A stretch of DNA of 33,243 bases, taken from NCBI GenBank assembly GCA_015488565.1, contig WFNQ01000262.1:1-33243 (forward strand), given 5' to 3'. Positions within the stretch are counted from its first letter, which is position 1. Each line of letters starts with the position of its first letter. Under the pieces are notes generated by a model. The model saw only the letters and a list, made by a program, of their open reading frames with translations. It made no database searches and was not told the origin of the DNA. Below are positions 9,186 to 31,139 of the stretch, one piece after another. Source of the stretch: Thiomicrorhabdus sp. GTDB taxonomy: Bacteria; Pseudomonadota; Gammaproteobacteria; Thiomicrospirales; Thiomicrospiraceae. The position numbers and the translations under genes were made by a program.

Positions 9186-11066
9186 TTACTGTCCACGCAT
9201 AAATAAGCTGTCTAACTGTTCCATCGAAATCTGTACCCACGTCGGGCGACCGTGATTGCACTGATCCGAACGTTCGGTTACTTCCATCTCACGCAGTAAC
9301 GCGTTCATTTCGGCGAGCGTTAACTGCCGATTGGCACGTACGGCACCATGACACGCCATGGTGGAAAGCATTTCATTAATTAAATCTTCAACTTGTTGCG
9401 TTTGCCCTGCTACAGATAAATCAGCAATCATGTCATTGATTAACCCGACCACATCACTTTTTACCAGTAAAGCGGGCACGGCGGTAATTTTCAACTGCTC
9501 TGGTCCAAGTGGTTCAATTTCGAACCCGAGTTTATTAAACCCGGCCTGATTTGATTGCCACACCGCAATTTGAGAGGCATCTAATGCCATCGCGATTGGC
9601 ACCAATAACGGCTGACTAATGAGGCGATCACTCTCCCACTGTTTTTTAAATCGCTCATACACCACGCGTTCATGTGCCGCGTGCATATCAACCAAGACTA
9701 ATCCGTGTTGATTTTCGGCCAAAATATAGACCCCATGTAACTGTGCTTTGGCAAACCCCAAGCGGGGCGTATTGCTTGAATCGGTTAACACGGAGTCGTA
9801 GGCGGTTACTGGCTCAGCCACACCCTCTTTTCGTCGCTGATCGATCATACTTTGCAATTCACGATTGACACTGGACGATTCGTTCGGCTGTTGAAATGCC
9901 ATCGCCGTCTGCACATCCTGTTGCGACAAACCTTTTGAAAAGAAGGCAGGCGAACCGCTTGAAAAGCTGCCCGTGGAAGGAAGTCCCATCGCCTGATTAA
10001 GCGATGCGCCACTGCCCGATTCGGATGCCACGGGTTTGGCAACAAAGTCGCGTATAGAACGGCGTAAAAAATCATACACCCAGCGGCCATTGGCAAAACG
10101 CACTTCATACTTAGCGGGATGTACATTCACATCCACTAACGCATTGGGAATCTCTAAAAATAATAAATACGCGGGATGGCGACCGTGATACAGCACATCG
10201 GTATACGCCTGTTTCACCGCATAAGACAACAAGCGATCTCGTACAATACGACCATTTACAAATAAATACTGCATATCCGTTTGACTGCGATTAAAGGTGG
10301 GCAGTCCTACCCAGCCTGTGATGCGAATATCTTGTGCCTCGCAGGTAATCTCTAAGGACTGCTCGACAAACGGTTTTCCCACCAATTGTGATAAGCGCTT
10401 AATTAAACTGTTTTGATCGGTCACAGCTTGAACTTGACGCACCACTTTTTGATTATGTAGCAGCTTAAAACTAATTTCGGGACGACTTAACATCACTCGC
10501 TTAACCAGTTGGTCAATATGGGTAAATTCGGTTTTAGCGGCTCTTAAGAATTTTTTTCGAGCGGGCGTATTAAAAAATAGATCGGTCACACTAATGCGTG
10601 TACCAACATTGCCTGAGGCAGGTTTTAACGTACTCCACGCCCCTTCCCCTTCGGAACGCAATAACCACGCGGCCTTGTCCGATTCATGTCGGCTCACAAT
10701 TTCAAATCGAGATACCGAGCTGATACTGGCCAATGCCTCGCCTCGAAATCCAAGCGTGCCAACTTCGGCCAAATCCGCTCCTGTTTTAATTTTACTTGTG
10801 GCATGGCGGCTCACCGCTAAAAGCAGTTCATCCTTAGGAATCCCCGAGCCATTATCTGAGATGACAATGGATTTCTCCCCCCCCTCTTCAATCCAGATAT
10901 CAATCGACGTCGCCCCCGAATCCAGTGCATTTTCCAGCAACTCTTTCACTACCGAGGCGGGGCGTTCGACCACCTCGCCCGCGGCAATTTGATCGGCCAA
11001 GTAAGAGGGCAGCGCTTCAATGGCTTGTCGTGTCATGGGTGGGGAGGGTTGAGAAACGGTCTTCAC
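9186..11066 (-). CDS. mutL: DNA mismatch repair protein MutL
   Basis: 626 aa; IAAGEVVERPASVVKELLENALDSGA, DNGSGI, TLGFRGEALASISSVS, C-terminal CHGAVRANRQLTLAEM. Confidence 0.98.
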   Translation of the reverse strand: MKTVSQPSPPMTRQAIEALPSYLADQIAAGEVVERPASVVKELLENALDSGATSIDIWIEEGGEKSIVISDNGSGIPKDELLLAVSRHATSKIKTGADLAEVGTLGFRGEALASISSVSRFEIVSRHESDKAAWLLRSEGEGAWSTLKPASGNVGTRISVTDLFFNTPARKKFLRAAKTEFTHIDQLVKRVMLSRPEISFKLLHNQKVVRQVQAVTDQNSLIKRLSQLVGKPFVEQSLEITCEAQDIRITGWVGLPTFNRSQTDMQYLFVNGRIVRDRLLSYAVKQAYTDVLYHGRHPAYLLFLEIPNALVDVNVHPAKYEVRFANGRWVYDFLRRSIRDFVAKPVASESGSGASLNQAMGLPSTGSFSSGSPAFFSKGLSQQDVQTAMAFQQPNESSSVNRELQSMIDQRRKEGVAEPVTAYDSVLTDSSNTPRLGFAKAQLHGVYILAENQHGLVLVDMHAAHERVVYERFKKQWESDRLISQPLLVPIAMALDASQIAVWQSNQAGFNKLGFEIEPLGPEQLKITAVPALLVKSDVVGLINDMIADLSVAGQTQQVEDLINEMLSTMACHGAVRANRQLTLAEMNALLREMEVTERSDQCNHGRPTWVQISMEQLDSLFMRGQ

Positions 11067-11989: not shown

Positions 11990-12056
11990 TCTGTTCTCTT
12001 TGGTTATCAATAAGGGGGGGGGAGAAATTTCTGTGCCGCTTTTTAAAGCGACTTGA

Positions 12057-15807: not shown

Positions 15808-16341
15808 ATGGCGATGCCCCAATCCAACCTAAAAAACCAAAATTCTCCCCCCCCTATTCGGCTTTTTGTCACTGGTGGAACACTGGATAAACAGTATCAA
15901 GAAACCACTGGCGAGCTTGTGTTTCCTAATACCCATTTGCCGATTATATTACAAGAAGCCAATGTCTCTTTACCCATAGAAACCACCGTATTAATGCAAA
16001 AAGACAGTTTAGAGATTACCGAAGACGAACGAATTCAAATTTGCCAAGCGTGTATTGAGACCCCTCAGCAAAAAATTATCATCACCCATGGAACAGATAC
16101 CATGGTGAATACCGCTACAGCACTCAGCCGAACCCCCGAGCTGAAGAATAAAACCATTATTCTCACCGGCGCAATGCGGCCTTTTATGCTCGGACACTCC
16201 GATGCCAGCTTTAATTTAGGCTCGGCACTCATGGCAGTACAACTTGCTAAAACGGGCATTTACATTGCCATGAACGGCCAACTATTTCAAGCTAACCAAG
16301 TACAAAAAAATCGACGACTTGGCTTGTTTACTGAGCTTTAA
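15808..16341 (+). CDS. Short asparaginase (N-terminal domain only)
   Basis: 177 aa; IRLFVTGGTLDKQYQETTGEL, IIITHGTDTMVNTA, KTIILTGAMRPF; no C-terminal asparaginase domain. Confidence 0.85.
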   Translation: MAMPQSNLKNQNSPPPIRLFVTGGTLDKQYQETTGELVFPNTHLPIILQEANVSLPIETTVLMQKDSLEITEDERIQICQACIETPQQKIIITHGTDTMVNTATALSRTPELKNKTIILTGAMRPFMLGHSDASFNLGSALMAVQLAKTGIYIAMNGQLFQANQVQKNRRLGLFTEL

Positions 16342-18713: not shown

Positions 18714-19338
18714 AAATGAGATAAGTCTCTTTAACACCATAACAACCAGCTTGCTTGCACAGTCTGGTTGGGAGTGGCTGGCGGCCAGCTTAGGCATAAC
18801 TTATGTATTATTAGCCTCCAAAACCTCTATTTGGTGTTGGCCTGCGGCGTTTGTCAGCACACTCATTTACACGTTATTATTTTGGGAAGGACAACTTCCC
18901 ATGCAGATGCTACTCAATGCTTACTACATGGGCATGGCCATCTACGGCTTTGCTCTCTGGCGACAACACAGCCAGTCCAATGCCACGCTTTCCATCACTA
19001 ATCGTCCACTTATATTTCACCTAACCTTCATAGGAGTAGGCATCCTATTAACAGGCATCATCGGTTTTTATTTAGCCAACCAACCCAATGCCAAACTTCC
19101 CTATCTTGATGCCATTATTATGGTTTTTTCGGTAATGAACATGGTTTTAATGGCAAAAAAAATCATCGAAAGCTGGCTCTATTGGATGGTCATTAACACG
19201 CTGGCGATTATGCTTTTTTTTCAAACGGGTTACTACGCCACCCTTATTATGTACTCTGTCTATTTAATACTCGCTTTTTATGGGTATTACCACTGGAAAA
19301 AGCTTAAAACCGCTCAGGATGCGCCATCCAACAATTAA
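18703..19338 (+). CDS. PnuC-family vitamin transporter (PnuT-like candidate)
   Basis: Multi-TM; LGITYVLLASKTSIWCWPAAFVSTLIYTLLFWEGQLPMQMLLNAYYMGMAIYGFALW typical of PnuC; internal ATG at 18703. Confidence 0.85.
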   Translation: MLVENEISLFNTITTSLLAQSGWEWLAASLGITYVLLASKTSIWCWPAAFVSTLIYTLLFWEGQLPMQMLLNAYYMGMAIYGFALWRQHSQSNATLSITNRPLIFHLTFIGVGILLTGIIGFYLANQPNAKLPYLDAIIMVFSVMNMVLMAKKIIESWLYWMVINTLAIMLFFQTGYYATLIMYSVYLILAFYGYYHWKKLKTAQDAPSNN

Positions 19339-20341
19339 AATCCCGCACGCCCAATACATTCATTTGAAACAACAATACGCGATACACCAATCGCGCTAAC
19401 GTTAAATCCGGTAGTGCATGATACGGTGTATAAACCGACAAAAACACTTCCGCTTGCTTTGGCGTTAATACATATTCCAGCATCACCAACTCTAGCTCTC
19501 TGGGGGCCCACACCATTGCATCTAAATCCAGCAACGCTAAATTTCTCCCCCCCTCTAATTGCAAAAATTGATCCCAACGGAAATCCAGCATAATCGGTTG
19601 AAAGCCATTGATGTTCAATTCATCCACTAAAGCCACCGTTCTCTCCATCGTCTCAACAGGAACGGTTGGGGTTTTATTTAACATCAATAACGTCTGTTTT
19701 AGGTTACGCTTCCATCTCGTTTTAGTCTTATGGCTAGAAGCCATGCTCTCCTCAAACAGCGCCCCAAAACAAGGCGCACTGTGTTGATGCAATAACGCTA
19801 CATGTTCGGCAATTTTCGCCACCTGATTTAAAGTCAATCGTTCCGCCGTAAGCCCTTGTCCCTCTAAATACTCTGTTAATAAAAATCCTGAAAATCTTAC
19901 TCCAGAGCACCCTCTCTTGAGCAAGCTCAATTCACCTTGCACTCCAGAGCACCCTCTCTTGAGCAAGCTCAATTCACCTTGTATCCCCCCCTCCTCCAAT
20001 GCATCCTGACTAGAAGCTGAATGAAGCAGCTTAGGAATAACCAAGGGTGACCAAGTGGCGATGCTTTGATACACACGGGCGTATTGGCCAAGACTGGATG
20101 CCAATTCAAATTCAAACACCCCCTCAACGGCTTGCCAAAAAGCAGGCGAGGCGCCATTGGATGTTGAGGACAGCTTTAAAAAACGCTTTTCCGAATCAAA
20201 CTGACACAACCAAAGTTGATGCGTACCATCCTCAAAGCCAGAGGGAATATTTTTAGCCCATTCACAACCCGAAAACAACGCCTGGTGCTCTGCACTTAAC
20301 AATGAATAAAAACAGGGGGGGGAAAAATTAAGCTTGCTCAA
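19304..20341 (-). CDS. APH/choline kinase-like phosphotransferase; 5' end uncertain, contains a repeat-derived 42-bp tandem duplication
   Basis: PIMLDFRWDQFLQLEGGRNLALLDLDAMVWAPRELELVMLEYVL; convergent with the pnuC-like gene. No ATG at the 5' end: TTG at 20341 lies within a repeat element. Confidence 0.65.
   Translation of the reverse strand: MSKLNFSPPCFYSLLSAEHQALFSGCEWAKNIPSGFEDGTHQLWLCQFDSEKRFLKLSSTSNGASPAFWQAVEGVFEFELASSLGQYARVYQSIATWSPLVIPKLLHSASSQDALEEGGIQGELSLLKRGCSGVQGELSLLKRGCSGVRFSGFLLTEYLEGQGLTAERLTLNQVAKIAEHVALLHQHSAPCFGALFEESMASSHKTKTRWKRNLKQTLLMLNKTPTVPVETMERTVALVDELNINGFQPIMLDFRWDQFLQLEGGRNLALLDLDAMVWAPRELELVMLEYVLTPKQAEVFLSVYTPYHALPDLTLARLVYRVLLFQMNVLGVRDFNCWMAHPERF
19899..19982 (-). 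repeat. 42-bp perfect (41/42) tandem duplication inside the kinase CDS
   Basis: actccagagcaccctctcttgagcaagctcaattcaccttg(c/t) at 19899-19940 and 19941-19982; encodes the duplicated peptide QGELSLLKRGCSGV. Confidence 0.97.
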
Positions 20342-20401
20342 AAGAGGGTACTCTGGGGCAGATTTTTTTCAATGTGATTTTGTTGCAATTTTCTCCCCCC
20401 C
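20315..20401. repeat. G8...C7 bounded REP/MITE-like element
   Basis: GGGGGGGGAAAAATT...AATTTTCTCCCCCCC inverted ends; internal agcttgctcaaaagagggtactctgg (20331-20356) matches 24/26 with each of the two copies in the kinase CDS. Confidence 0.8.
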
Positions 20402-20632
20402 TGCGTTTAAGTCCATATTATAAATGCTGTCGGCATAAAAAAAGGCAAAATGCCTAAACTACCCAGCATTAATGCATGCATAACTCGACACATAACTATT
20501 TAATTCGTACGAAATCCCCCCCCTCTCTTCCATCTATCCGCATCTATCTCAACTTATCATTTATAAAACCCTTTTTTTTAGATATAATCGCGGGATTAAA
20601 AAAATCGACATTACTTAAAAAAGGATATTCGC

Positions 20633-21289: not shown

Positions 21290-21313
21290 CCCGCCCCCAC
21301 GACAACAAAGAAA

Positions 21314-21430
21314 GGGCTTACAGAAAACAAACAAATAAACGTCTGCTCTTTTACCCCCTGACAAGGGAAGGGCCTGCGGAAAACAAACAATAAACGCTTG
21401 CTCTTTTACTCCCTCCCCTGACAAGGGGAG
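21314..21430. repeat. Two imperfect ~56-61 bp tandem repeats ending in a CCCTCCCCTGACAAGGGGAGGG palindrome
   Basis: gggcttacagaaaacaaacaaataaacgtctgctcttttaccccctgacaagggaa / gggcctgcggaaaacaaacaataaacgcttgctcttttactccctcccctgacaagggga; between convergent pcm and fliT. Confidence 0.85.
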
Positions 21431-24869: not shown

Positions 24870-25646
24870 TTAACCTGCTCGTAAAGACAAAATATGAGCG
24901 ATACTACTTTTATCTTGATATGGAAGAAAGGCTTTTTCTTTACGCTGAATCGCCAACATAGACATTCTATCGGCAAGTTCATTACCTTCTACACCAACAT
25001 GCCCATTCACATGAAGTACTTGAACCTGATTTTTAATCGTTTGATAACGCGCAAACATCTCTTGAATGAGAGGGAGGTTTTTAATTTCCCCCCCCGCCTT
25101 TTTCCACCCCTTTTTTTGCCACCCCACCGCCCATTGCGTTATACACTGAATGGCGTATTTAGAGTCACAAAAAATGGCCACACTTTGTCCAGATTCGCTT
25201 TCTGTTTTTGCTAAGATAAACGCTTGATTTAGCGCATTCAGCTCTGCGGTATTATTGGTTCCTGCTGGATTATAACAACCATACCAAAGCGACTCTAACG
25301 CCTCATTACGATACACAGCCATTCCTGAACCTGCTTTACCAGGATTAGGATCACAACCGCCATCGGTATACATTTTAACGTTGATGGGCATGTGAGCAAT
25401 CTCAGCGGCCGTATAGGTTTTAACGCCATTGGCCGTAGACTTTCGTGAGGTTGATTTCGATTTTTTTTCTCCCCCCCCTGTTGCGCTTGAACGCCCTGTT
25501 TTAAAAGCGGCTTCGGCCTCCTGTAAACTTAAAAAAGACTTATACTTTGCCCCTGCAAACTTATCAATCTGCTGTTTACAACTGTTCCAATCACGATAAA
25601 TTCCTGGCGTTCTGCCCTGCCATACAACGTAAAATTTCTTGGCCAT
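24870..25646 (-). CDS. rnhA: Ribonuclease H1 with N-terminal viroplasmin-like hybrid-binding domain
   Basis: 258 aa; KKFYVVWQGRTPGIYRDWNSCKQQIDKFAGAKYKSF (HBD), MYTDGGCDPNPGKAGSG, NNTAELNAL, DSKYAI, HVNGHVGVEGNELAD. Confidence 0.94.
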   Translation of the reverse strand: MAKKFYVVWQGRTPGIYRDWNSCKQQIDKFAGAKYKSFLSLQEAEAAFKTGRSSATGGGEKKSKSTSRKSTANGVKTYTAAEIAHMPINVKMYTDGGCDPNPGKAGSGMAVYRNEALESLWYGCYNPAGTNNTAELNALNQAFILAKTESESGQSVAIFCDSKYAIQCITQWAVGWQKKGWKKAGGEIKNLPLIQEMFARYQTIKNQVQVLHVNGHVGVEGNELADRMSMLAIQRKEKAFLPYQDKSSIAHILSLRAG

Positions 25647-31045: not shown

Positions 31046-31094
31046 AAAAGAGATTACCGAACTTCGTGAGTTTAATGTTGTTTTGTTGAACCAA

Positions 31095-31139
31095 GGGGGG
31101 GGAAAAATATTTTGGATTAAAATTTTCTCCCCCTCCCCC
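31095..31139. repeat. Short G8/C5 inverted-repeat element
   Basis: GGGGGGGGAAAAATATTTTGGATTAAAATTTTCTCCCCCTCCCCC. Confidence 0.8.

Follow-up and report, generated by a model that had tools for sequence, protein, structure and literature searches.

The window (the whole stretch of 33,243 nucleotides analysed here) belongs to a draft genome of Thiomicrorhabdus sp., 1.79-Mb in size and 80% complete, which we call G000. The locus under study lies at positions 20315-20401, where a 345-aa ORF with no Pfam match begins (19304-20341, minus strand); the neighbours of this gene are a PnuC-type transporter and PCMT. The locus itself opens with a G8 tract (20315-20322) and closes with a C7 tract (20395-20401), and its two sides form an inverted match (20307-20329 with 20387-20409) that is 83% complementary. 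An earlier note had taken the two tracts as the ends of a single REP/MITE-like element whose core recurs inside the adjacent gene. All the sequences it named are in place, and they belong to two distinct features, of which one sits inside the other: a G-tract motif and a 42-bp unit.

Read from left to right, the locus runs from the G8 tract through a unit minus its first third and an AT stretch to an inverted motif copy ending in C7. The left half of the inverted pair is a copy of the G8 motif (A-GGGGGGGG-AAAAATT; 20314-20329, plus strand) and the right half a second, inverted copy (GGGGGGGAGAAAATTGC; 20385-20401, minus strand); the degenerate 42-bp unit, its 5' third lost (AATTAAGCTTGCTCAAAAGAGGGTACTCTGGGGC; 20326-20359, plus strand), contains a 26-bp core. 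This core recurs on the opposite strand, with 2 mismatches, at 19902-19927 and again at 19944-19969, within two exact 41-nt copies that lie 42 bp apart (19899-19939 and 19941-19981) and share their strand with a G7 tract (19985-19991). Here the unit is intact and in tandem: the G7 tract (minus strand) is the 5' part of a motif occupied by two units, the first (19941-19982, minus strand) in frame in the 345-aa ORF, where it reads QGELSLLKRGCSGV, and the second (19899-19940, minus strand) followed by the motif's AT half (AAGATTTT) and empty in a close relative, G011. The sequence TTGAGCNNGCTCAA is exact in both 41-nt copies, and its third occurrence has one mismatch, at 20328. In short, the first of these loci (20315-20401) is what remains of a unit inside an inverted motif pair, and the second (19899-19991) consists of two units inserted in tandem into the adjacent gene.

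The G011 spacer corresponding to 20315-20401 has neither G tract nor unit. A unit-free motif (GGGGGGGAGAAATTT; 19539-19553, minus strand) stands at Gly-Gly codons of the 345-aa ORF, and G011 has it too. Upstream of the PCMT gene lies a motif-like G8 tract (20516-20523, minus strand), and imperfect direct repeats of 48-bp and 30-bp, ~55 bp apart, are found beside the same gene (21305-21427). The TTG start of the 345-aa ORF falls inside the degenerate unit (20300-20341, minus strand), so the insertion may have supplied the start codon or N-terminus of this protein.

The 42-bp unit and its sites

The unit (ACAAGGTGAATTGAGCNNGCTCAAGAGAGGGTRCYCTGGRGT) is present in ~30 copies in G000 and in 1-10 copies in each of five further genomes of the same clade, with none in the 26 other genomes of the genus. 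Copies read with their flanks take the form ACAAGGTGAATTGAGCTTGCTCAAGAGAGGGTGCTCTGGAGT, standing alone or as two or three tandem copies, as a rule with a G tract before and AGAAATTTT after. A chance origin of the core repeats is excluded, since a 121-bp query from the locus gave 21 significant matches in its own genome and the core pattern gave 31 matches at up to three mismatches in G000, against 0 for a reversed-pattern control. Among 85,462 species genomes (from which G000 itself was possibly left out) the exact core occurs in one contig, and G011 has the same core. Phages, plasmids and viral contigs contained no match to the unit, and a phage or plasmid origin was rejected accordingly; a search for a known RNA family returned one sub-threshold, meaningless hit.

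Within the unit, the palindrome TTGAGCNNGCTCAA shows changes on both sides at 3 of its 6 pairs, that is, compensatory ones, a score reached by 7 of 500 shuffles; the second half of the unit is less well supported. The unit folds with an ordinary energy when set against shuffles (z -1.2 to -1.4), and a strong single-strand fold was discarded as a candidate feature. In genes, the sense frame of the unit reads the same QGELSLLKRGCSGV as above; a length of 14 codons and a single open sense frame let the unit survive inside proteins. It sits in frame in unrelated genes that have empty orthologues, as do palindromic elements of the Rickettsia type.

Comparison of filled and empty sites defines how the unit sits in its target. 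One orthologous pair reads AGGGGGGGGAGAAAATTCA when empty and AGGGGGAGGG-unit-AGAAAATTCA when filled, a net gain of 42 bp, and four more pairs were found. Among these pairs, the 345-aa ORF carries its two units where G011 reads GAAGAGGGGGGTAGAAATTTTTCAGG, the proteins differing by exactly 28 residues; a sugar-isomerase-like gene reads ATGACAGGGGGGGGAGAAAATTCA in G045 and, in G000, the same plus 42 bases, and three more agree. At a KpsF-like gene, a G8 tract lies near the site in G022, and G045 lacks one. The unit inserts between the G tract and AGAAATTT, is never reversed, duplicates no target sequence and preserves the frame in genes. On its 5' side a run of four or more Gs is found in 23 of 29 copies and a C4+ run in 0, the remaining 6 having no clear G4 run, and most filled sites have one G tract only. 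The core has ~30 copies in G000, and relatives have both filled and empty sites. This supports the earlier note's proposal of a small element dispersed over coding and noncoding sequence, since the outcome that the note would have taken as refuting it, a core confined to this locus and relatives lacking polymorphic sites, is not what we see.

Some units of G011 and G045 sit in a larger repeat with the ends GAGACCTTTGCACGA/TCGTGCAAAGGTCTC, at CACGG^AT and AGCT^AT, which shows that the unit can enter other DNA as well. This larger repeat, which looks like a MITE of its own, carries the unit at two different internal positions (loci L274, L277, L278, L280, L282, L284 and L288 in G011; L134, L149 and L273 in G045).

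The G-tract motif

The motif that receives the unit has the consensus A-G7-10-A[AG]AA[AT]TTT. Our statistics come from genome-wide pattern counts and from samples of 314 kb (G000) and 400 kb, and all genomes are drafts, three of the six that bear the motif being <90% complete. In 314 kb of G000 there are 101 runs of G7 or longer where ~8.5 are expected, and 69 of G8 or longer where 1.8 are expected; in 400 kb, G045 has 171 G7+ runs and the outgroup G042 has 2. The tracts of G000 range from 7 to 13 in length and are flanked by A at -1 (87%), A at +1 (73%), A or G at +2 (88%) and A at +3 and +4 (~73%), and those of G045 show the same pattern. G7+ tracts occur about once per 2.3-3.1 kb, mostly without the 26-bp core.

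This motif is restricted to one clade. The form RGGGGGGGGAGAAA has 27-117 copies in six Thiomicrorhabdus genomes and 0 in the other 26 of the genus, and these six form a single clade in a MutL tree (support 96/88). Of a longer form, G000 has 63 copies, and none of the 368 other gammaproteobacteria in a sample of 369 has more than one. Such strong over-representation in its own genome is a hallmark of DNA uptake sequences. About two thirds to 70% of motif sites lie in genes, at a density of 0.26-0.32 per kb, against 0.86-1.41 per kb between genes, a 3- to 4-fold higher value (samples of G000 and G045, the G000 densities being somewhat inflated as its contigs were picked partly for holding matches, those of G045 being the longest). 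Between genes, motifs also face each other in pairs, with 4 such pairs in G000 and 9 in G045, a modest excess. The window itself holds an intergenic motif (GGGGGGGGGAGAAATT; 12014-12029, plus strand) whose orthologues in other clade genomes also have it, a unit-free motif (AGGGGGGGGAGAATTTT; 15839-15855, minus strand), and two unit-free inverted pairs, one between convergent genes (31094-31136, plus strand) and one of the form G9 ... C10 (33105-33150, plus strand).

How did the motif come to lie in genes? In mutL (10870-10885, minus strand) it reads AGGGGGGGGAGAAATC at the residues EEGGEKS, which are coded GAAGAGGGGGGGGAGAAATCC in G000, G011, G045 (with one change outside the motif), G016 and G043 and by a variant form in G022, the six being the whole clade; outgroup mutL codes the same residues as GAAGAGGGTGGCGAAAAGTCG and similar (GGTGGC, GGTGGT and the like). 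The mutL motif arose by synonymous substitution, with no indel. An RNase H gene has one motif at a Gly codon pair (GGGGGGGGAAATTAAA; 25080-25095, minus strand), gapless against the outgroup's AGGCGGAGAAATTAAA, and another in its linker (AGGGGGGGGAGAAAA; 25465-25479, minus strand). We made 24 motif-site alignments and left out four that hit G016, a clade member; among the 20 to true outgroups, 15 are gapless across the motif, several of these 15 being poorly aligned. Base substitution as the origin of copies in genes, together with enrichment between genes, is again what is seen with uptake sequences. We also considered that the G8 motif might be the scar left by excised units, and rejected this because the mutL motif comes without any length change.

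These results bear directly on the idea that G8 and C7 bound one element of a plain MITE or REP family, mobilised by a RAYT or another transposase. Its copies are dispersed, empty sites exist, the palindrome is internal and the clade does have Y1/RAYT genes, all of which would suit such a family; however, the tracts behave as an independent motif, several times commoner than the core and standing alone at hundreds of sites, and in mutL the tract was made by substitution and not by insertion. Moreover, both the tract and the AT half remain at empty sites, and most filled sites offer only the one G tract. As the unit has no terminal inverted repeat and filled and empty sites reveal no target duplication, MITE is the wrong model for it. 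Nor does the RAYT connection hold: Y1 genes, present in 22 of 32 genomes, occur with and without the unit and show no association with it, RAYTs have different flanking repeats, and no Y1 locus that we read has the unit at its ends. We found no transposase or other enzyme linked to the unit, and consider this explanation improbable. The RAYT-type genes of G000 and G011 (L258, L259 and L089) are flanked by repeats of their own, AAAGGGGACGCTACCCTTT and AAGGGGTCAAAGCCCTTTTTTGT.

Could the tracts instead be a functionless product of mutation and slippage, through homopolymer growth or as contingency loci, with insertion of the unit merely reflecting fragile DNA? Their variable length (7 to 13) would fit, and poly-G tracts serve phase variation in other bacteria. 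Against this, the AT-rich right flank and the left A are fixed, tracts lie in the housekeeping gene mutL without frameshift, 26 sister species lack them, and longer tracts are the better conserved: between G000 and G045, 77% of G8+ runs are kept and 31-44% of G4-6 runs (small numbers, 13 and 172 runs), with A runs following the opposite trend. Slippage on its own strikes us as an unlikely account, and the best reading is that the motif is kept by DNA-level selection or biased import.

One further observation concerns exchange between species. A stretch holding two G8 sites is 97.8% identical between G000 (L091) and G022 (L057), species that are otherwise ~77-83% identical at the loci compared, which suggests a recent exchange.

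Motifs of relatives and the question of function

Relatives outside the clade have a different motif, CCAGGCCTGGTA, which is palindromic and occurs in G042 at a density similar to or higher than that of the G8 motif. Exact copies of CAGGCCTGGTA number 948 in G042, 935 in G021, 730 in G008, 655 in G015 and 402 in G014, with 0-1 in each of the six G8-motif genomes. The relatives' palindrome can occupy the tip of terminator-like hairpins. Other members of the genus have further motif forms (GCAGGCCTGC, AACAGGCC and ACCGGCCGGT), and some show none. Since the G8 lineage is nested among CCAGGCCTGGTA lineages in the MutL tree, the simplest reading is a replacement, in which the six genomes lost CCAGGCCTGGTA and the G8 motif took its place.

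What might such motifs do? In its pattern the G8 motif is most like the dialects of DNA uptake sequences, and it would behave as one of them. We posit two layers, a clade-specific, uptake-like motif and a 42-bp transposase-less unit that inserts into it, and hold this to be somewhat better than an even proposition. On the first layer, the competence machinery would preferentially import fragments that bear the motif, which recombination would in turn spread and maintain, mostly at Gly-Gly codons through base substitution in genes, and also as inverted pairs between genes; the G8 motif would have replaced an older CCAGGCCTGGTA-type motif that relatives still have. On the second, the unit, with its internal palindrome, enters the motif where the G tract meets AGAAATTT, always the same way round and sometimes in tandem, as a guest that would be inserted by some strand-specific activity, perhaps a recombinase acting in trans. 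A ComEC domain was found in 29 of the 32 genomes, whether or not they carry the G8 motif; being genus-wide, it does not separate the motif dialects. Two points speak against the uptake reading: at about one per 2.3-3.1 kb, G tracts are sparser than classical uptake sequences, and it would be unusual for a recognition sequence to have a homopolymer as its core.

A different function deserves consideration: the motif could be a Chi hotspot, a KOPS segregation guide or a HIP1-like palindrome tied to methylation, with the unit merely targeting it. Its high copy number in and between genes and its conservation between species would suit any of these, and the outgroup motif is palindromic, as HIP1 is. 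In G052, from another genus of the family, the CAGGCCTGGTA sites listed over the first 1.1 Mb (~60) are all on the plus strand (totals 131/110), a clustering that points to replichore polarity there, though not in G055; this suits a replication-polar Chi or KOPS better, and misfits an uptake sequence in that genus, which keeps the non-uptake alternative alive. The G8 motif, however, is not palindromic and shows no strand polarity within contigs, neighbouring sites lying on the same strand in a fraction of 0.50-0.54, as uptake sequences would and unlike the replichore polarity of Chi and KOPS; moreover, that sister lineages differ in their motif is reminiscent of uptake dialects. We regard a non-uptake site as possible, though clearly the less probable reading beside the uptake-like motif and its guest.

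One could go further within the uptake reading and speculate that the clade gave up an ancestral uptake sequence of the CCAGGCCTGGTA type in favour of poly-G, and that the 42-bp unit is a parasitic element that evolved to insert at the uptake motif, profiting both from transformation and from its frame-neutral entry into genes. This fuller scenario we offer tentatively, and with a good deal more doubt than the two layers themselves.

Known systems compared

To our knowledge, only Neisseriaceae and Pasteurellaceae have established uptake sequences, and in the open-access literature we found no report of them in the Thiomicrorhabdus group. Should the uptake reading be true, environmental sulfur oxidisers would join these two families as a third lineage, one whose sister clades have no fewer than two different motifs. 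Comparison of dozens of genomes could then test directly how uptake motifs originate and replace one another, and an element that targets such a motif would connect selfish DNA with self-recognition during transformation in a new way. Even if the motif does not serve uptake, it is conserved and spread over the whole genome.

For the unit, two comparisons suggest themselves. The palindromic elements of Rickettsia, as we know them, are likewise small, transposase-less and palindrome-bearing, lie in frame in genes as well as in spacers, and have empty orthologues; our unit differs in being only 42 bp long, in its fixed orientation, defined G8 target and tandem arrays, in its unrelated sequence and in its gammaproteobacterial hosts. 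Like the repeats of REP/RAYT systems, it is short and palindromic, keeps one strand relation to its target and duplicates no target sequence, but it has no linked RAYT and no identifiable GTAG/GGAG foot at the hairpin base, and it occurs inside genes.

For the motif, HIP1, the highly iterated palindrome of cyanobacteria that is tied to orphan methyltransferases (PMC4390886), offers a parallel as a very abundant short genomic motif, comparable to the relatives' CCAGGCCTGGTA; unlike HIP1, the G8 motif is not palindromic. The nearest known systems are the USS of Pasteurellaceae and the DUS dialects of Neisseriaceae (PMC1626085, PMC3630211, PMC2346458). The motif described here departs from them in its G7-10 homopolymer core, where theirs is a mixed 9-12-mer, in its lower density and in belonging to another bacterial family. 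What it has in common with them is a presence in hundreds of copies on both strands, in genes and enriched between them, with the copies in genes made by base substitution and a different sequence in sister lineages.
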